IMG/VR virus record: IMGVR_UViG_3300025425_000033
Span: 1 to 48,456 of that record
Strand: one strand, 5' to 3'
Source of the DNA: a virus
Length of the DNA: 48,456 nucleotides
The notes beneath the pieces were generated by a model. It ran no database searches and was not told the DNA's origin. It saw only the letters and a program-made list of their open reading frames with translations. Below, in pieces: positions 12,876-29,872 of the stretch (its first letter is position 1; each line of letters starts with the position of its first letter). The translations under genes and the position numbers were made by a program.

Positions 12876-12956
12876 TTAACCCCGTAGTCTGGCTGTAAGG
12901 ATGCGGAAGGCCTTTTCTGCGGTGGAGGGCACGACGCCGTTGCCTAAGAGTGAGTA
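12876..12956 (-). pseudogene. Remnant of a C5-methyltransferase C-terminus
   Basis: In the frame ending at the TAA 12876-12878 the translation reads SLLGNGVVPSTAEKAFRIL. This is the LLGNGxVPxxxxxAFxxL motif X region that closes C5 cytosine methyltransferases. The intact methyltransferase upstream ends in the same way (LLGNGCVPQTVSRAFSVL). Only these ~25 codons are recognisable, and they begin inside the last codons of the GIY-YIG gene. I read it as the old 3' end of a methyltransferase gene, cut off by insertion of the endonuclease gene. Confidence 0.6.
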
Positions 12957-13723
12957 CACGCCTGCGAGCAATATTTCCTTGCGCGGTGTTCTTGGATGGA
13001 CATCCGTGCCCCGCATGGGCGCCTTGATCGTTTGACCTCGCTGCCGCACCGTTGGCACCTAACGTGATGTTCGGGAGCCACGTACGCGGACACGCCAAGG
13101 ACCTGTCGCCGATTACGGACAGACATGGTGCCGACGCCTAGGTCTTTCCCTACCTGGACATCGGTCGCCGTAGCAAGGCGAGAATCCATCTTAGGGGTCC
13201 ACACCGTCGGACGTTTGGCAGACGATTTCTTGATGCCAAGCCTAAGCCTCTTGGTCCTAATGGTGTTCTCGTTTATGCCGTACTTCGCTGCCAGTTCGTG
13301 GTCAGGAACCGTGGGCATTTCAGCTAAAATGGGTTCCGGCCATTCGATCTTCGCTCGCCTCCGCATTCCGGGGAATCTCTTCCCTTCCTGGTTGCGCCGC
13401 GCCGAGTACGAGCTGCCCGCGGCCTTGCTTCCTGTGCCGATCTCTGCGACGTTCAGTAGGTTATCAACGCCTATCCCAATAATCATTCGGGCCTCTGCGT
13501 CGATGGCCTGGCCCCGAGTAAGGCCAGACTCTACTGATTCGATGGTGACCAATACACCAGAGGCCGCGAAATTCCCCACAGGCGTGCCCTTGGTCTTATG
13601 CGAAGCCAGCCTATCACGAAGAGACCCACGCGTAATGCCCACGTAGACGACTTGGCGCGTGTCGGATCGACGCACGATATAAACCGTGTTGTCGGTTGGA
13701 AGTGCTACTTCAGTCGGTTCCAT
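12944..13723 (-). CDS. GIY-YIG family homing-type endonuclease
   Basis: The product has 259 residues. The GIY-YIG domain spans about residues 12-95: VYIV at 14-17, YVGI at 27-30, then R and H residues, and a likely metal-binding Glu at 77 (IDAEARM). Two HTH-like DNA-binding units follow (HELAAKYGINENTIRTKRLRL and DVQVGKDLGVGTMSVRNRR), then a zinc ribbon (RCQRCG ... CSQAC). This nuclease plus modular DNA-binding tail is typical of free-standing homing endonucleases. The start overlaps the end of the intact methyltransferase gene by 19 bases and the stop overlaps a second methyltransferase C-terminal motif, so the gene sits exactly at that target. Confidence 0.85.
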   Translation of the reverse strand: MEPTEVALPTDNTVYIVRRSDTRQVVYVGITRGSLRDRLASHKTKGTPVGNFAASGVLVTIESVESGLTRGQAIDAEARMIIGIGVDNLLNVAEIGTGSKAAGSSYSARRNQEGKRFPGMRRRAKIEWPEPILAEMPTVPDHELAAKYGINENTIRTKRLRLGIKKSSAKRPTVWTPKMDSRLATATDVQVGKDLGVGTMSVRNRRQVLGVSAYVAPEHHVRCQRCGSEVKRSRRPCGARMSIQEHRARKYCSQACTHS

Positions 13724-14916
13724 AAGACACTAAAGGCTCTTGATACAGTTTGTGGCACGCAGCCATTTCCGAGGAGGCGCAGTTCGTCAATTCTGGAGTC
13801 ACTGGTTCGGCACAGCTCGGCATAGTCCAGCCGATCGGGATTCCTTGCAGACACTCGACCCACCTCGGGTTCAATCTCGCGCTCTTCGTCTGCCCCACGG
13901 CCTCCCCGATGTTCGACCGGCCCCGATCCTCGATTGAATCTTTGTGCATGAAGGTCCGCGGTGTCGGCCATTGGCGATCCTTCTGCACCACCTGACTCGG
14001 CAACATCAGATCCCCTTTCGACCCCCGTTGGTTCGGGCCGCCCTTCTCCCCGTCGCTGCCTCTCGGCGTTGCCCACGACTCTCGGCGGCTCCCATCCGTA
14101 CTGGGGTTCTGTGGGACCGGAGGGCCATAGCGCATGAAGTTCGGGAGCTGGTCCATGTGGGCGCGGCCCTTCGCTGTCTGCGTGTGTTCCTCGCTGTTTG
14201 TGCCCTTGTGGTCTCTCGCTGCTGGAGTCGGCCATTGCCGCACCTGAGCCGCCAGCGGCAGCCCGAAGCCGTTCCCGTTCTTCTTCTCGGCTTTGACCCG
14301 TAGCCTTCGGCTCTCCAGGCTCTCCAGGCTCTCCAGGCTCTCCAGGCTCTCCCCGTCGTTCATCACGGAGGCGTCGGGAGTCGCCCAGCCTGCCGAGGAT
14401 AAAGACCCGCTTCCTCCTGTGTGGCGCCCCGACTTCTTCCGCTGAGAATATTCCCCACGTTGTCTCGTAACCATCGCTGACCATGTCGCGGATGACTGCG
14501 TCAAGTCCTGAAGTGATATGCCCCTCGACGTTTTCCCAAAAAAGGAGCCTTGGACGCAGTCGTAGATAGTGCTGGCGTATTCGCGGCCACAGGTGGCGCG
14601 GATCGTCCGTTCCAAGACGCTTTCCGGCGTGGCTGAAGGGCTGACAGGGGTAGCCGCCCGATATGAGATCGACTGCACCCACCCACGGATCGGGGTCGAA
14701 GGTGTGTAGATCCGTCCAAATAGGTGCCGCATCCAGTTGACCCGCTTCCATCTTCGCAACCAGGTTGGCGCAGGCGAAGGACTCGATCTCCACAGCAAAT
14801 GCGAGGCGCACATCGAAGCCAAGCGATCTTGCGGCACGCGATATTCCGATGTCGAGTCCTCCGTATCCAGTACAGAATGATCCGACATTAAGGGTAGGTT
14901 TCTTGGTAGTATCCAC
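13705..14916 (-). CDS. DNA (cytosine-5) methyltransferase
   Basis: The product has 403 residues from a GTG start. Motif I (FCTGYGGLDIGI, about 14-25), motif IV with the catalytic Cys91 (GGYPCQPFS), motif VI (ENV, 128-130), motif VIII (PHRRKRVFIL, about 165-174) and motif X at the end are all present, so it is probably active. The target-recognition part (about 180-370) is long, Arg/Glu/Gly-rich and carries five GEP triplets plus repeated MADS/VGNAERQR-like units, common in phage enzymes. It likely protects phage DNA from host restriction. Upstream are a 26-codon frame and a run of eight G (minus strand). Confidence 0.9.
   Translation of the reverse strand: MDTTKKPTLNVGSFCTGYGGLDIGISRAARSLGFDVRLAFAVEIESFACANLVAKMEAGQLDAAPIWTDLHTFDPDPWVGAVDLISGGYPCQPFSHAGKRLGTDDPRHLWPRIRQHYLRLRPRLLFWENVEGHITSGLDAVIRDMVSDGYETTWGIFSAEEVGAPHRRKRVFILGRLGDSRRLRDERRGEPGEPGEPGEPGEPKATGQSREEERERLRAAAGGSGAAMADSSSERPQGHKQRGTHADSEGPRPHGPAPELHALWPSGPTEPQYGWEPPRVVGNAERQRRGEGRPEPTGVERGSDVAESGGAEGSPMADTADLHAQRFNRGSGPVEHRGGRGADEEREIEPEVGRVSARNPDRLDYAELCRTSDSRIDELRLLGNGCVPQTVSRAFSVLWNRLK
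14311..14354 (-). repeat. 9-bp tandem repeat in the methyltransferase recognition region
   Basis: The plus-strand unit CTCTCCAGG occurs four times in tandem, followed by a partial copy, and encodes GEP repeats on the coding strand. Copy-number changes would keep the frame. The repeat sits just after motif VIII, at the start of the target-recognition region. Confidence 0.9.
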
Positions 14917-14917
14917 A

Positions 14918-14998
14918 CTATCGCCCCCCCCAGTCAGACACGAGGCCGTCGGCCCCCAGTTCGCGTAGCCTGTGGGCTACCATTTCGAGTACGGTCAT
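14918..14998 (-). pseudogene. 26-codon frame duplicating the start of the gene at 11777
   Basis: It reads MTVLEMVAHRLRELGADGLV and onward, closely matching MTVLEIVASKLRDIGADGLC of the Cys-rich gene at 11316-11777; the DNA is clearly alike over 60 bases. The frame stops after a run of eight G on the minus strand (14924-14931), just before the methyltransferase GTG. A one-base change in that run would fuse it to the methyltransferase frame. It is probably a truncated paralogue that now supplies a coupled translation start. Confidence 0.5.
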
Positions 14999-23929: not shown

Positions 23930-24178
23930 TCACAGCGTGTCACCTTCCGTCACCAGGACACTGGTCTGAACCTCTAGCGCCTCCACGGCCTGGCGCACCA
24001 CGCCCAGTCGGCCGACCACTGTGCGGTGTCCATTGAGCAGTTGGGACAACTGGGCAGGCGAGAGTCCGCAGTGTGCCGCTACGTCGCGGTGCTGCACGCC
24101 CGCGAACCGGAGCCGTCGCACACGCAGGGCCATGTCCATCACGGCCGGGGATGTTCTATTGTGAAGTTCACCAGGCAT
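23930..24178 (-). CDS. Small XRE-type repressor-like protein, 82 aa
   Basis: Nearly the entire protein is an HTH domain: GVQHRDVAAHCGLSPAQLSQLLNGHRTV at about 27-54, flanked by helices. It sits at the divergence point between the minus-strand early genes and the plus-strand ParB/PAPS operon, with a TGTTAA motif 7 bases above its ATG and a palindromic operator facing the other arm. It is the best candidate for the regulator that binds these sites, which is an inference from position. Confidence 0.75.
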   Translation of the reverse strand: MPGELHNRTSPAVMDMALRVRRLRFAGVQHRDVAAHCGLSPAQLSQLLNGHRTVVGRLGVVRQAVEALEVQTSVLVTEGDTL

Positions 24179-24185
24179 CTTTTGC

Positions 24186-24206
24186 GCGCCTACTGTTAAC
24201 TAGTTT
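24186..24206 (-). promoter_or_regulatory. TGTTAA operator-like motif (copy 4)
   Basis: The plus-strand GCGCCTACTGTTAACTAG aligns with the CGCCTANTGTTAA core of copies 1-3 and sits 7 bases upstream of the repressor-like gene's start. The -10/-35 boxes are less clear here (possible TTGTTC and ACTAGT with 17-base spacing). Suggests autoregulation. Confidence 0.5.
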
Positions 24207-24246
24207 ACTTTGACGTTGGAGGAACAACCATTAGAGGTTATCTGAT

Positions 24247-24372: not shown

Positions 24373-24391
24373 TGTGTTAATTGGTTAACAC
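24341..24391 (+). promoter_or_regulatory. Forward promoter with 18-bp palindromic operator
   Basis: -35 TTGACT (24341-24346), 18-base spacer, -10 TAACTT (24365-24370). Just downstream, over the expected start of transcription, is a perfect inverted repeat GTGTTAATTGGTTAACAC (24374-24391). Its half-site holds the TGTTAA hexamer found at all four early motif copies. Likely controls the ParB/PAPS-reductase operon. Confidence 0.7.
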
Positions 24392-24405: not shown

Positions 24406-25050
24406 TTGAACGTAATTCCTTCGCGCACGGATACCGTCGCACTCGCTGAAATCCGGCCGCACCCCAAGAACCCCCGCCAGGGGGATGTGGGAGCGATCAC
24501 AGACTCTATCAACCACCACGGCTTCTTCGGCCGGCTGTTGATACAGGAGTCCACCGGGTACATCATTGCCGGCAACCACCGGTATCAGGCCGCCCTCGCC
24601 CTGGGCGCCGACACGATCCCAGTCGAGTACCTGGACGTTGATGACCAGCAGGCCGCCAAGATCCTGGCCGTGGACAACCGGCTGAGTGACCTCGCGGACT
24701 ACGACCGCAGCGCGCTCACTAAGTTGCTCTTGGAGTTTGCCGAACAGGACACCCTAGCGGGCACAGGCTACACGGGGGATGACCTGGACGAGTTGATGCT
24801 TGAAATGGAGTCGGCCCTGGGGGACGCCTACGAGGAAGAGCAGACAGCAGGCGGCGGTGACGCGGCCGGCTACGAATTCACGCCCTCCATTGTCTACACC
24901 GTGGTCTTTGACACACGGGAGCAGAAAGACGCCTTCATGTCTTTCCTCACGTGGCTCCGCACTGATGACGCCAACATAGCCGGCGACACCATCGCGGAAC
25001 GTCTACTCACCTTCCTACAGGACCATGCCGATCCACAGGCGTTTCATTGA
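24406..25050 (+). CDS. ParB-like nuclease domain protein (IbrB-like)
   Basis: The product has 214 residues from a TTG start, the only plausible one, with AAGGG upstream. The ParB/Srx-like domain covers residues ~10-100: VALAEIRPHPKNPRQGD, ITDSINHHGFFGRLLIQ, IAGNHRYQAALALGADTIPVEYLDVDD. GNHRYxAA is the family's signature. The remainder is helical and acidic. The gene overlaps a PAPS-reductase-like gene by 26 bases, the same pair as IbrB/IbrA. Phage proteins of this type have been linked to DNA binding, nicking or modification; the exact role is unknown. Confidence 0.75.
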   Translation: MNVIPSRTDTVALAEIRPHPKNPRQGDVGAITDSINHHGFFGRLLIQESTGYIIAGNHRYQAALALGADTIPVEYLDVDDQQAAKILAVDNRLSDLADYDRSALTKLLLEFAEQDTLAGTGYTGDDLDELMLEMESALGDAYEEEQTAGGGDAAGYEFTPSIVYTVVFDTREQKDAFMSFLTWLRTDDANIAGDTIAERLLTFLQDHADPQAFH

Positions 25051-26134
25051 CTCCGATGTGTTGACGGAGGCCCGCCAGCGCATCCGCTACGTCATGGCCA
25101 GCTTCGACAGCTGGTGCGTGGCCTTCTCCGGGGGCAAGGACTCCATCGTGGTCCTGCACCTGGTGCGCCAGGCGATGGACGCGGCCGGCCTGCAAGACCA
25201 ACCGCTGGAGGTAGTCTTCCGGGACGAGGAATTGATCTCTGATGTAGTAGTCAACACCGTGCGGTTCTACTTCGACCAGCCGGAGCGCTACGCGCTGCGC
25301 TGGTACGCCGTGCCGCTCATGTCCGAGAAGTTCATCCTGGGGCGCAAGTATGAGTACGTCCAGTGGGATCCCGCCCGCCCGCACGTAAGAGACAAGCCGG
25401 CCTGGGCTATCACGGAACCGACTGGCCGCGTGTTTGACCAGTACAGCATGGATGACTTCGCCACCCGGGACATGGCCGGCCGCGTGGCTGTCTTCAACGG
25501 CACCCGGGCCTCGGAGAGCCTCACCCGCCGGTTCTCCTGCCTCAACAAGCTGGATGACAACTACATCAACGCCACAGAGGTCGGCAGGGTCAAGATGGTC
25601 AAGCCCATCTATGACTGGGAGGAAGTAGACGTCTTCCGCTTCATCCACGACGAGGACATACCCTACTGCCCCATCTATGACGCCCAGTTGTGGAATGGCG
25701 AGGCCCTGCGCGTGTCCACCCCCCTGCACGCGGAAACCGCCAAAAACCTGGGCCGCCTGCGCACGCTAGACCCGGCCTTCTACGACCGCATCCTAAGCGT
25801 ATTCCCCGAAATGGAGGTGCAAGACCGGTACTGGAATGACATAGATCGCAACGTCGTGTTTGCCCAGTACGGGGTCTCCTGGCGCGCCATGATCTCCTGG
25901 ATCAAGGACAACATCCCCGACCCGGCACTGCGTGCCCTGGCCGCCAAGCGCGTGCAAACGTGCCGCTCCATTCGCCGCAACAACCTCCGGAAGGGTGTCT
26001 CGAAGGACACCTACGGGGGCTATCCGCTCCTGTACGTGTTCAAGCAGATCATTGGGGGCAACTACAAGCGCGTGATCCTGCCTTTACGGGCCGCCAAGGT
26101 ATCCAAGGAAATGCGGAGGTGGGAGGATGACTGA
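25025..26134 (+). CDS. PAPS-reductase family PP-loop protein (IbrA-like)
   Basis: The product has 369 residues. The PP-loop SGGKDS lies at residues 35-40 after a CVAF strand, which is typical of the PAPS reductase/ATP sulfurylase fold that binds and adenylates. FRDEELISD fits the next conserved strand, and GTRASESLTRRF is the RxxES-type substrate segment of this class. The C-terminal ~170 residues are helical and basic (RSIRRNNLRKGVSKD). Partnered with the ParB-like protein. Relatives include IbrA and the DNA-phosphorothioation protein DndC. Sulfur chemistry on DNA or nucleotides is possible but not shown. Confidence 0.8.
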   Translation: MPIHRRFIDSDVLTEARQRIRYVMASFDSWCVAFSGGKDSIVVLHLVRQAMDAAGLQDQPLEVVFRDEELISDVVVNTVRFYFDQPERYALRWYAVPLMSEKFILGRKYEYVQWDPARPHVRDKPAWAITEPTGRVFDQYSMDDFATRDMAGRVAVFNGTRASESLTRRFSCLNKLDDNYINATEVGRVKMVKPIYDWEEVDVFRFIHDEDIPYCPIYDAQLWNGEALRVSTPLHAETAKNLGRLRTLDPAFYDRILSVFPEMEVQDRYWNDIDRNVVFAQYGVSWRAMISWIKDNIPDPALRALAAKRVQTCRSIRRNNLRKGVSKDTYGGYPLLYVFKQIIGGNYKRVILPLRAAKVSKEMRRWEDD

Positions 26135-26501
26135 AGCCGCTATCAAGCGATGGATTGACCGCCACCTTCCCACTATCATGAGCCAGCTGGGCCTTCAGGA
26201 GTGGTTTGTGCGCGTGAGCATCAGCACGGAAGAAGCTCCGGACATAGCCCTTGAGATTCACACGGCCGCCAGCGTGGACTACGACGCGCCGCACCGCGAG
26301 GCTCACATGACCGTCCATGTGACCTTCGTCACTAATGCCGCCAAATTGAGAGCCTTCGTCACGCATGAGTTGCTGCACCTGGTGGTCGCGGACCTGGAGA
26401 CCGTCGCCAGCACCGTCGCCAGGGGCGAGGTGGAGGGTGCCCTGGTAGAGGATGCGGTGGAGTTGCTGGTCTGCCGCCTGGAAAAGATCGTGTTGTCATG
26501 A
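26127..26501 (+). CDS. Metalloprotease-like protein (HExxH)
   Basis: The product has 124 residues. The zinc-binding motif HELLH is at 80-84, with a further Glu-rich helix (ALVEDAVELLVCRLE) about 25 residues later that could give the third ligand. The N-terminal half is a small beta-sheet domain (FVRVSISTEE, AHMTVHVTFV). Size and layout resemble minimal SprT/M-type phage peptidases. Overlaps both neighbours. The target is unknown. Confidence 0.65.
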   Translation: MTEAAIKRWIDRHLPTIMSQLGLQEWFVRVSISTEEAPDIALEIHTAASVDYDAPHREAHMTVHVTFVTNAAKLRAFVTHELLHLVVADLETVASTVARGEVEGALVEDAVELLVCRLEKIVLS

Positions 26502-26881
26502 TGCTACGCGAAGTCACTCACGAATTCATCCTCCAGTTGGCGCGGGATTGGCGCCCGGAGGGATTGATCCTCACGCCCACCAAGGGGCCGTGCTACTGGT
26601 ATGTAGAAAAAGAGCGCCGGGGCTTCTGCTGTATCGCAGTAGTAGGGAAGCAGCGGATAGCACGCAGTAGGAGCCTGTTCGTACACGTGGACCACCGTCG
26701 CCAGGGCCTCGCGCGACTCATGGTCGCGGAGTGTATGGACCTGGCCGCCGGCATGGGGTGCCGAGCAATGGATGCCCACGCCAACCCCAACTCGCTCCAC
26801 CTGTACGAAACACTGGGGTTCGCACCCGTGGGCCACAACTCGAAGCTCAACACTACCCACGTATTCAAGGCGTTCAAATGA
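26498..26881 (+). CDS. GNAT family N-acetyltransferase
   Basis: The product has 127 residues. The acetyl-CoA pyrophosphate loop RRQGLA is at 67-72 after the FVHVDH strand, followed by the helix LMVAECMDLAAGMG and the typical ending ANPNSLHLYETLGFAPVG. The domain fills the entire protein. It could act on protein, small molecule or DNA base; some phage GNAT-fold enzymes (Mom) modify adenine. Position in the ParB/PAPS operon makes a DNA-modification role worth testing. Confidence 0.8.
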   Translation: MMLREVTHEFILQLARDWRPEGLILTPTKGPCYWYVEKERRGFCCIAVVGKQRIARSRSLFVHVDHRRQGLARLMVAECMDLAAGMGCRAMDAHANPNSLHLYETLGFAPVGHNSKLNTTHVFKAFK

Positions 26882-27204
26882 ATCCCTACGGACAACCGAT
26901 CGGCCCGCCCGTATCAGCCCGCTTCCCCGTGTCAGAGAACTACATCTACGAGTTGCGGTATCGCACCAAGGACCAGCCTGGCGCCATGACCATGACGGGC
27001 TGGGTGGAAGAGATCAACAACAGCACCGAGGACGGGCGCTATGGATGGAAGCGGGTTATCGTGCGCTTTCGGGCCATTAGATCACACGTAGTGTCCATCG
27101 CCGGCAACCTGACCATATACGCGCTGGAGGTCGAGGAGATTGGCCCTGCCACACAGAAGGCAGTCGGCGGCCTTATTCTACCACCGACTATAGGGAGGAC
27201 ATGA
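26878..27204 (+). CDS. Hypothetical protein, 108 aa
   Basis: The start ATG overlaps the GNAT stop (ATGA). The beta-rich sequence (ENYIYELRYRTKDQPGAMTMTGWVEEI, later KRVIVRFRAIRSHVVSIAGNLTIYALEVEEI) suggests a small barrel. The last codons overlap the SD of the next gene (GGGAGGACATGA). No family recognised. Confidence 0.55.
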   Translation: MNPYGQPIGPPVSARFPVSENYIYELRYRTKDQPGAMTMTGWVEEINNSTEDGRYGWKRVIVRFRAIRSHVVSIAGNLTIYALEVEEIGPATQKAVGGLILPPTIGRT

Positions 27205-27362
27205 CTATGGGACTATCGACGTACAACGGCTGGCCAGGAGACTTCCGAGAGCGCCGGTTTGCCCGCTGGAAGAAAGACCCGCGGAATAAGCACCGCCCTG
27301 GAGACGCGCTCAACATCCGAGAGCACAAGTATTCCAAGGCCTGGGTTCCTGAGAAGGTCTGA
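27201..27362 (+). CDS. Small basic protein, 53 aa
   Basis: The ATG at 27201 overlaps the upstream stop and has GGGAGG just upstream (a second ATG 6 bases on is possible). The peptide is strongly basic and aromatic (YNGWPGDFRERRFARWKKDPRNKH). No family recognised; it may bind nucleic acid. Last gene before the late promoter. Confidence 0.5.
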   Translation: MTMGLSTYNGWPGDFRERRFARWKKDPRNKHRPGDALNIREHKYSKAWVPEKV

Positions 27363-27423: not shown

Positions 27424-27828
27424 ATGACCAAAAGAGACCTCAAGCCTGCCCCGAAGCCCAAGAACCAGGGCAAGGGGAAGCCGGCCCGCTACAACAAGAA
27501 GATGGTCCTGGACGCGATCAAGGGCAGTGGCGGCTTCATCAGTGTCCTGGCCGCGCGACTTGCCTGCTCCCATCGCCATGTCCACAACCTCATCAACAAG
27601 TATGCAGACGCGCAGGGCCTGATCGACGAAGAGCGCATCCGCCAGGTGGACTTCGCGGAGGGCAAGCTGCAAGAGAAGATCCGCACCGGCAACATGACGG
27701 CAATCATCTTCTATCTCAAGACCCAAGGGCGCGACCGGGGCTACGTGGAGCGCTATGAGCAAGTCATCACCGACCAGTCCACTATTGGCATCAATATCCT
27801 GACCACTGAGCCCGAGGAAGCCGCGTGA
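27424..27828 (+). CDS. Terminase small subunit (probable)
   Basis: The product has 134 residues. A basic Lys/Pro N-terminus is followed by an HTH (MVLDAIKGSGGFISVLAARLACSHRHVHNLINKYA, about 28-62) that recognises DNA, and by a C-terminal helical part (LQEKIRTGNMTAIIFYLKTQGRDRGYVER) of the type seen in phage small terminases. The order promoter - HTH protein - terminase large subunit supports the call. Two small membrane-protein genes lie between it and the large subunit. No SD before the ATG. Confidence 0.75.
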   Translation: MTKRDLKPAPKPKNQGKGKPARYNKKMVLDAIKGSGGFISVLAARLACSHRHVHNLINKYADAQGLIDEERIRQVDFAEGKLQEKIRTGNMTAIIFYLKTQGRDRGYVERYEQVITDQSTIGINILTTEPEEAA

Positions 27829-28567: not shown

Positions 28568-29872
28568 GTGAGCCTTATCAGCTACACCCGCCGGTCAGCC
28601 CGGACGCGCGAGATAAACTTCTCGCTGCACCCTGGACAGATCCGTTCGCTGGAGGCCACTAAACGAACCGTCCTGGTGTTGGCCGGCACGCAGGGAGGAA
28701 AGACCACGATTGGCCCTCTGTGGCTCTTCCGAGAGATGCAGCGCAAGGGGCCAGGGGATTACCTGGTGGCCTGTCCGTCCTTTGACCTCATGGCCAAGCG
28801 CGCTACGCCGGAGTTCGAACGTCTGTTCGAGCGGGAGTTGAAGCTGGGCAAGCTGTACCGGGGCGGTGCCCGCGCCTTCATCATGAACCCGCGGAACCAC
28901 AGCCGAGTGTGGGGGAACCGCTTCCTCGACCAGGCTGACGAGCCCACCCGCGTCCTGTTTGGGCACGCCAAGAACCCGGACAGCCTGGAGAGCGCCACCA
29001 TCAAGGCGGTATGGATGGATGAGGCAGGGCAGAAGGCGTTCAAAATCGCCTCATACGAGGCTATTCAGCGCCGCCTCTCTATCCACAACGGCCGCCAGCT
29101 AATCACGACCACTCCCTACAACCTGGGCTGGCTCAAGACGGTACTGCACGATCCAGGTGTCAGGGGAGACCCGGACATAGACCTGGTGCGCTTCGAGTCC
29201 ATCATGAACCCCACCTTCAGCCGGGAGGTATGGGATCGGGCCCAGCGCACGCTCCCGCGCTGGAAGTTTGACCTGTTCTACCGGGCCATATTCACCCGGC
29301 CGGCGGGCCTTATCTACGACTCGTTCGACGATAACGATGTGGTGACGCCGTTCAAGATACCGGAGGACTGGCCCCGGTACATCGGCATTGACTTCGGAGG
29401 TGTCAACCTGGCCTGCATCTTCTACGCCTGGGAGCCGGGCGGCGAACTGTTCGCCTACCGGGAATACTACCCGCAGGAGCATCGTAGCGTGGAGCAGCAC
29501 ACTATCGCCATGCTCAAGGGGGAGCCCCGTAGGCCGCGCACCGTGGGAGGGGCACCGTCTGAGATACAGTGGCGCCGGGAGTTCGGAGAAAGCGGTTTGG
29601 GCATTGAGCGTCCCCGCATCACCGAGGTAGAAGTGGGCCTAGACCGCGTGTGGGCCGCTCACAAGGCCCGGCGCATCAAGGTTTTCAACACCCTAAGTCA
29701 TTATCTTGACGAAAAGCGTTCCTATTCCCGCGTACTGAACGACGAGGATCAGCCCACGGACGCGATTGAGGACAAGCACGACTATCACCTCATGGACGCA
29801 GAGCGGTACATAATCTCCGAGATTCTGGCCGTCGAGAGCGCCGAGTCTACCACTAGCATGACACCGTTCTAG
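28568..29872 (+). CDS. terL: Terminase large subunit
   Basis: The product has 434 residues from a GTG. The packaging ATPase has Walker A GTQGGKT (40-46), Walker B with D151/E152 (VWMDEAGQ) and the coupling motif TTPYN. The nuclease domain begins YIGIDFGGVN with Asp275, with further acidic residues near 405-410 (DYHLMD). Domain order and size fit the Terminase_6-type enzymes of siphoviruses. It cuts and pumps DNA into the prohead at the portal encoded just downstream. Confidence 0.92.
   Translation: MSLISYTRRSARTREINFSLHPGQIRSLEATKRTVLVLAGTQGGKTTIGPLWLFREMQRKGPGDYLVACPSFDLMAKRATPEFERLFERELKLGKLYRGGARAFIMNPRNHSRVWGNRFLDQADEPTRVLFGHAKNPDSLESATIKAVWMDEAGQKAFKIASYEAIQRRLSIHNGRQLITTTPYNLGWLKTVLHDPGVRGDPDIDLVRFESIMNPTFSREVWDRAQRTLPRWKFDLFYRAIFTRPAGLIYDSFDDNDVVTPFKIPEDWPRYIGIDFGGVNLACIFYAWEPGGELFAYREYYPQEHRSVEQHTIAMLKGEPRRPRTVGGAPSEIQWRREFGESGLGIERPRITEVEVGLDRVWAAHKARRIKVFNTLSHYLDEKRSYSRVLNDEDQPTDAIEDKHDYHLMDAERYIISEILAVESAESTTSMTPF

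Follow-up and report, generated by a model that had tools for sequence, protein, structure and literature searches.

An operon of overlapping genes ahead of the terminase

The DNA analysed here, called the window, is a viral record from IMG/VR that is 48,456 bases long. ORF calling in the window placed four genes in a row, all on the + strand and co-directional, with successive overlaps of 26, 8 and 4 bases. These encode a ParB-fold protein (ParB1), a PP-loop enzyme, a small protein with an HELLH motif and a GNAT acetyltransferase (Table 1). A first-pass annotation of this DNA had described them as a tightly linked four-gene operon behind an operator-controlled promoter. The operon is real, but it does not end with these four genes: it extends past position 26881 into orf5 and then a 53-aa ORF, each starting within the stop of the preceding gene, and only part of it is conserved.

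Operator control of the ParB1 operon is plausible. The palindrome GTGTTAATTGGTTAACAC, which would be the operator, has no second exact match anywhere in the window and is accompanied by a divergent HTH repressor-like gene. The promoter itself did not emerge, as a simple promoter scan found no sigma-70-like sequence beside the palindrome. Elsewhere in the window, on the - strand, are a separate DNA-methyltransferase-like gene (13710-14918; phrog_1008, 9e-19) and a gene (12944-13723) that matches GIY-YIG weakly (0.0022) and also matches a D5-like regulator PHROG.

Table 1. Positions of the operon, its candidate control elements and the adjoining terminase genes in the window.
Feature	Position	Strand	Evidence and remarks
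Divergent HTH repressor-like gene	23930-24178	-	Pfam HTH_31, 4.1e-7
Possible second operator TGTTAACTAGTTTAC, 15-mer	24194-24208		80% like GTGTTAATTGGTTAACAC; adjoins the HTH gene
Candidate operator palindrome GTGTTAATTGGTTAACAC	24374-24391		Perfect; 14 bases ahead of the ParB1 start codon
ParB1	24406-25050	+	TTG start; ParB/Srx fold, GNHR motif, conserved C-terminal domain; phrog_723
PP-loop ATP-using enzyme, PAPS-reductase superfamily	25025-26134	+	phrog_2302; SGGKDS; helical C-terminal domain
Small HELLH protein, possible zincin	26127-26501	+	Motif; absent from other cassettes
GNAT acetyltransferase, cassette "cap" slot	26498-26881	+	Pfam 3.2e-12
orf5, 108 aa, hypothetical gene	26878-27204	+	Overlaps the GNAT gene and the next ORF
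53-aa putative relic: HNH-like N-terminus fused to ParB2 (IbrB-type) C-terminus	27201-27362	+	Profile matches
Terminase-small-subunit-like gene	27424-27828	+	Weak phrog_309; homologues downstream of cassettes in relatives
Terminase large subunit (TerL)	28568-29872	+	phrog_2, 1.2e-23

Part of the operon belongs to a cassette found across phages

Relatives of the PP-loop protein were gathered from viral contigs and phage records, ORFs were called, profiles were built and neighbours were tabulated, with near-duplicate loci removed at 80% identity. Neighbourhood counts were made on the 38 loci that had at least 1.5 kb before and at least 3.5 kb after the PP-loop frame. A recurring order emerged: ParB1, the PP-loop enzyme, an enzyme that we call the cap, an HNH-like Cys/His protein (X) and a second ParB (ParB2), often followed by TerS and TerL, where the positions of ParB2 and the cap vary between cassettes. 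ParB1 is upstream of the PP-loop gene in 37 of the 38 loci and ParB2 downstream in 37 of 38, while X, which has a weak match to an HNH endonuclease PHROG and matches EcoKMcrA at 0.011, is present in 24 of 38. A cap occurs in 34 loci: 22 of them have a GNAT, 12 have a SAM methyltransferase (phrog_11826) and no locus has both. The methyltransferase caps gave no clear DNA-methyltransferase match in Pfam, and four of the 38 loci have no recognised cap. Inspection of cap-less loci by eye revealed no third cap type. Six loci (L099, L127, L148, L150, L151 and L156) have two tandem ParB genes ahead of the PP-loop gene.

In most cases the cassette sits immediately ahead of the terminase, and in Bacillus phage 031MP004 it is also beside the terminase if the genome ends are joined. 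In L181, whose TerL is a relative at 50%, no cassette was visible upstream. The window has ParB1 directly before the PP-loop gene and one cap, a GNAT, but, alone among the 38 full loci, no ParB2 that the ParB profile recognises; X is missing as well. Its operon is a reduced form of this cassette, which is widespread in phages. Close relatives of its ParB1 or GNAT were not found in viral contigs. Among the matches listed from a scan of genome contigs, the PP-loop protein had one clear relative, on a truncated Kribbella contig, and the remaining matches listed were distant PP-loop proteins (22-30%) or short segments; judged from these, the close PP-loop family looks mostly viral.

Linkage on this scale bears on whether the genes act together at all. 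Independent moron genes brought side by side by chance, with no joint function, could account for the HExxH gene and orf5, which have no conserved partners. For ParB, PP-loop and cap, however, the linkage frequencies, taken over diverse phages in which the gene order varies, largely refute this explanation, which we consider very improbable overall; the refutation does not extend to the HExxH gene and orf5. The linkage that the annotation expected in relatives is therefore strong for the ParB, PP-loop and acetyltransferase genes, usually upstream of the terminase, and does not hold for the HExxH gene.

The "metalloprotease-like" label given to that gene reflects one motif, HELLH, which makes its product a possible zincin; the gene stands outside the conserved set. 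It has no match in Pfam or NCBIfam, its best PHROG is phrog_7315 (E=0.0013), and no relatives were found by pattern search, by tblastn, in phage records or in the fetched cassette neighbourhoods. Folded alone, it gave a poor model (pLDDT 51). We rejected it as a conserved cassette partner, as no cassette has a counterpart. Since orf5 also has no relative among the fetched loci, and neither gene has a counterpart in other cassettes, the two look like local additions.

Acetyltransferase and methyltransferase caps exclude and replace one another

For the window GNAT, identity is only 13-24%. A cassette-GNAT profile built without it nevertheless finds it at 4.2e-14, and its phmmer matches outside the window with E below 0.1 come exclusively from loci that were fetched for their PP-loop gene. 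A shared cap slot is well supported by these comparisons; strict orthology is not.

Across all 62 PP-loop loci, 34 have a GNAT, 15 have a methyltransferase and none has both (P=4e-7 if the two were independent). We placed the cap labels on a tree of the 62 PP-loop proteins, which was built by a short search with SH-aLRT support. They change 14 times on this tree, compared with 13.1 times when shuffled, and well-supported branches force at least 7 of the changes. The two caps have thus been exchanged often, about 14 times over 62 loci, and as a result the exclusion test depends less on kinship among the loci. Arthrobacter phages of the Laroyevirus group provide a natural comparison, in which the cap slot differs while the surrounding proteins are about 65-86% identical. 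The slot between ParB2 and TerS is occupied by an annotated acetyltransferase in Kovu and by a methyltransferase in Salgado, Shrooms and Wheelbite. Kovu is 82-86% identical to the other three in the PP-loop protein, 79-81% in ParB2, 78% in TerL and 65-67% in TerS, whereas the caps, which belong to different superfamilies, share 16-19%. The sister branches L113 (methyltransferase) and L127 (GNAT) on the PP-loop tree are another natural swap pair. Separately, the Arthrobacter Laroyevirus records L014 and L178-L180 have, at their left end, one more ParB gene, of about 400 aa, near a hypothetical gene of 1.4-1.6 kb. An independent study of a cryoconite phage noted variable methyltransferases and, in one variant, an acetyltransferase, all in the region for DNA packaging (PMC7468147), a likeness in genome region.

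The caps and their neighbourhood could also be read as pointing to a protein target, either of the host or the terminase itself. The PP-loop enzyme would then adenylylate that protein, and the GNAT or methyltransferase would add acetyl or methyl to it or to a partner. Phage GNATs are often thought to be protein-directed, as with the RimI-like ones in polyvalent proteins (PMC5512222), and the cassette often adjoins the terminase, including in 031MP004 if its ends are joined. The PP-loop fold superfamily, however, acts on small molecules and nucleic acids, and we consider a protein target unlikely.

The PP-loop enzyme resembles adenylylating enzymes

The window PP-loop protein matches PAPS_reduct at 5e-15 (56.3 bits, against a cut-off of 22.5) and phrog_2302 at 1.2e-104. 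Invariant across the 62 homologues are SGGKDS, D67/E69, W114, R118, G159-x-R161, E164, R168, D197-W198 and R229-V230. No cysteine is invariant in this set, and a conserved catalytic cysteine of the CysH type is therefore absent. The best-conserved one, C215 (55 of 62), lies within a YCxIYD motif that resembles that of FAD synthase. An AlphaFold model, made from an alignment of 59 sequences that left out three phage-collection rows, reached a pLDDT of 94. The nearest solved structures are FAD synthase first, then PAPS reductases together with CysD, an ATP sulfurylase, and the best sequence-profile matches are likewise FAD synthase (6e-6) and CysD (2e-5). FAD synthase and CysD move AMP from ATP and do not require a thiol. 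The likeness to them is thus one of nearest fold and profile to enzymes that adenylylate without thiol sulfur transfer; the phage protein differs by an extra C-terminal helical domain and by an identity of 12-20%. Because there is no invariant cysteine and FAD synthase is the nearest fold, the enzyme would more probably use ATP to adenylylate a substrate than transfer sulfur, judging from the fold and the motif. The sulfur chemistry that the first-pass annotation attributed to the PP-loop enzyme is unsupported on both counts. If so, a set of annotations under "auxiliary sulfur metabolism" would have to be reassigned, as the enzyme is missing the conserved cysteines of sulfur chemistry. In phage lambda, ninC, which is annotated to the PAPS reductase family, scored as essential in a CRISPRi screen, while earlier work had listed it as non-essential (PMC10695390).

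A specific version of sulfur chemistry is DNA phosphorothioation of the DndB/DndC kind, which also joins a ParB-superfamily protein (DndB) to a PP-loop enzyme (DndC; PMC10853773, PMC11662687). Weak DndC matches of 27-31 bits are consistent with this. The DndC 4Fe-4S cluster requires cysteines (PMC11662687), however, which are not conserved here, the DndC score of 27 bits compares with a cut-off of 290, and DndD and DndE were not seen among the annotated neighbours. We rejected sulfur transfer and phosphorothioation on the missing cysteines and consider this explanation extremely improbable. The fold also leaves room for modification of RNA, where the cassette would alter a tRNA, or of a nucleotide such as an immune second messenger. 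The tRNA enzymes TilS, TtuA and NcsA are among the fold matches and Cap9 is a weak profile match, but we found no RNA-binding domain, and the linkage to ParB and HNH-like genes points to DNA instead. We regard an RNA or immune-signal target as quite unlikely.

The ParB proteins and the IbrA/IbrB pair

ParB1 of the window matches ParB_N in Pfam (3.7e-6), and its best PHROG is phrog_723 (6e-42); phrog_2159 is not among its matches. The DNA-methyltransferase PHROG phrog_498 matches it over the ParB part at 5e-25. Profiles of both ParB1 and ParB2 match Noc and Spo0J, and that of ParB1 additionally matches sulfiredoxin and the serine kinase SbnI. Pfam detects no separate DNA-binding domain in window ParB1 or in ParB2 of locus L007. 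When ParB1 was assessed as a ParABS-type ParB, it scored 28 bits against TIGR00180, where 58 are required, and no ParA is annotated beside the cassettes in the phage records compared. A role as an NTP-dependent clamp or kinase is a reasonable suggestion for both ParBs from these matches. A survey of ParB-fold proteins describes variable binding of CTP, ATP and GTP, as well as fusions to methyltransferases and acetyltransferases (PMC12704722).

To our knowledge, IbrA and IbrB are the only relatives that have been studied. The annotation had called the window genes an IbrB/IbrA-type pair, and this is partly right. In PhiR5_2, the protein annotated as IbrA falls in phrog_2302, the PHROG of the window PP-loop protein, and contains DUF3440 at 4.7e-33, while IbrB falls in phrog_2159 (4.9e-91), which is the family of cassette ParB2. 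DUF3440, the C-terminal domain of IbrA, is absent from the window PP-loop protein by Pfam, and ParB1 is the wrong paralogue, with phrog_723 in place of phrog_2159. An exact IbrB/IbrA pair was rejected for these reasons, and the window PP-loop enzyme is, by family membership, a cousin of IbrA. An Asgard archaeal virus, HeimV2, has been reported with both IbrA and IbrB, and relatives are thus not confined to viruses that infect bacteria (PMC8813620).

This kinship raises the prospect of a regulatory module, in which the ParB-fold and PP-loop proteins would be activators of genes of the phage or a prophage, in the way reported for E. coli IbrAB, and the caps would be passengers. IbrA and IbrB share PHROGs with the PP-loop protein and ParB2, and PMC10763512, referring to Sandt 2002, describes them as co-activators of prophage gene expression, a role also given in annotation. 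Such a module does not predict a strict alternation of acetyl- and methyltransferases, however, and the lack of a separate DNA-binding domain in the two ParBs searched with Pfam also argues against it. We consider it rather unlikely.

A 53-aa ORF in place of X and ParB2

The 53-aa ORF has an X-like (HNH-like) start, STYNGWPGDFRE, and a ParB2-like end, NIREHKYSKAWVPEK. It is the best match in the window to both the X and the ParB2 profiles (E 0.013 and 0.0043), and among 37,045 ORFs it is the only one that matches both, besides its own copy in L011. Read most simply, a single in-frame deletion brought two adjacent genes together, although an assembly error in the metagenome (a chimera) could also have produced the fusion. 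Since deletion would have left no more than this fusion of ParB2, which is IbrB-type, and the HNH-like gene, the module in the window may be altered or failing.

A possible function in modification before packaging

We tentatively favour, with a confidence that stops a little short of even, a modification cassette that acts most likely on phage DNA or nucleotides and whose cap, acetyl or methyl, can be exchanged. The DNA or nucleotide target is suggested by the ParB partners, the HNH-like partner, the likeness of ParB1 to a methyltransferase PHROG and the position ahead of packaging genes, and also by the rapid cap exchange, which fits an arms race. Several points count against modification: the methyltransferases have no clear DNA-methyltransferase Pfam match, IbrA and IbrB are described as activators, 4 of 38 loci are cap-less and the window has no ParB2.

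A more detailed proposal, which we hold as possible but with less assurance, is hypermodification of phage DNA or of a nucleotide, with a PP-loop enzyme that lacks conserved cysteines and is gated by two ParB-fold NTPases, a base that is adenylylated and derivatised, and a cap, acetyl in some phages and methyl in close relatives of theirs, that is swapped repeatedly under host pressure. In the reading that we favour, the phage would most likely put a chemical tag, presumably protective, on DNA or nucleotides of its own ahead of packaging. ATP would serve the PP-loop enzyme to adenylylate its substrate, in the manner of FAD synthase and ATP sulfurylase, rather than to move sulfur. Targeting or gating of this enzyme would fall to the ParB-fold proteins, acting as clamps or kinases driven by NTP. 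Next, an acetyl or methyl group would be added to the product as a cap by the GNAT or the methyltransferase, and host recognition of the tag would select variants and so drive cap exchange. The suggestion in the first-pass annotation of DNA or nucleotide modification, or of an anti-defence function, survives in part: the swapping of acetyl and methyl caps speaks for a role in modification or in an arms race, while the sulfur chemistry is unsupported.

Comparison with known systems

In the literature searched, we found no paper that connects a ParB and PAPS reductase set with modification or the terminase, or that describes alternating caps. Iyer et al. 2013 reportedly predicted PP-loop-based DNA modifications in phages. 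The parts are known by annotation, as IbrA/IbrB and as the ParB-PAPS sets of actinophages, and the cassette with its alternating caps is without a description in the literature searched. Those actinophage sets, in Mycobacterium phage Obutu and the Arthrobacter Laroyeviruses, have ParB1, PP-loop and ParB2 genes upstream of TerL, as in the cassette; Kovu also has its acetyltransferase there, and Obutu has no recognised cap. By comparison, the window has the HExxH gene and orf5 inserted and ParB2 deleted. The methyltransferase fusions of phage ParB-fold proteins, as covered in the survey, share with the cassette a ParB fold coupled to modification enzymes, whereas the cassette has separate genes plus a PP-loop enzyme; the main text of the survey mentions neither PAPS nor IbrB (PMC12704722). 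Relative to IbrA/IbrB, with which it shares the PP-loop PHROG and the ParB2 family, the window lacks DUF3440, has the other ParB paralogue, appears to keep the IbrB-type gene as a relic and has a GNAT added. Genes like IbrA/IbrB have been annotated in many phages without a mechanism, and the finding that the conserved cassette strictly alternates between two unrelated caps makes a specific prediction.
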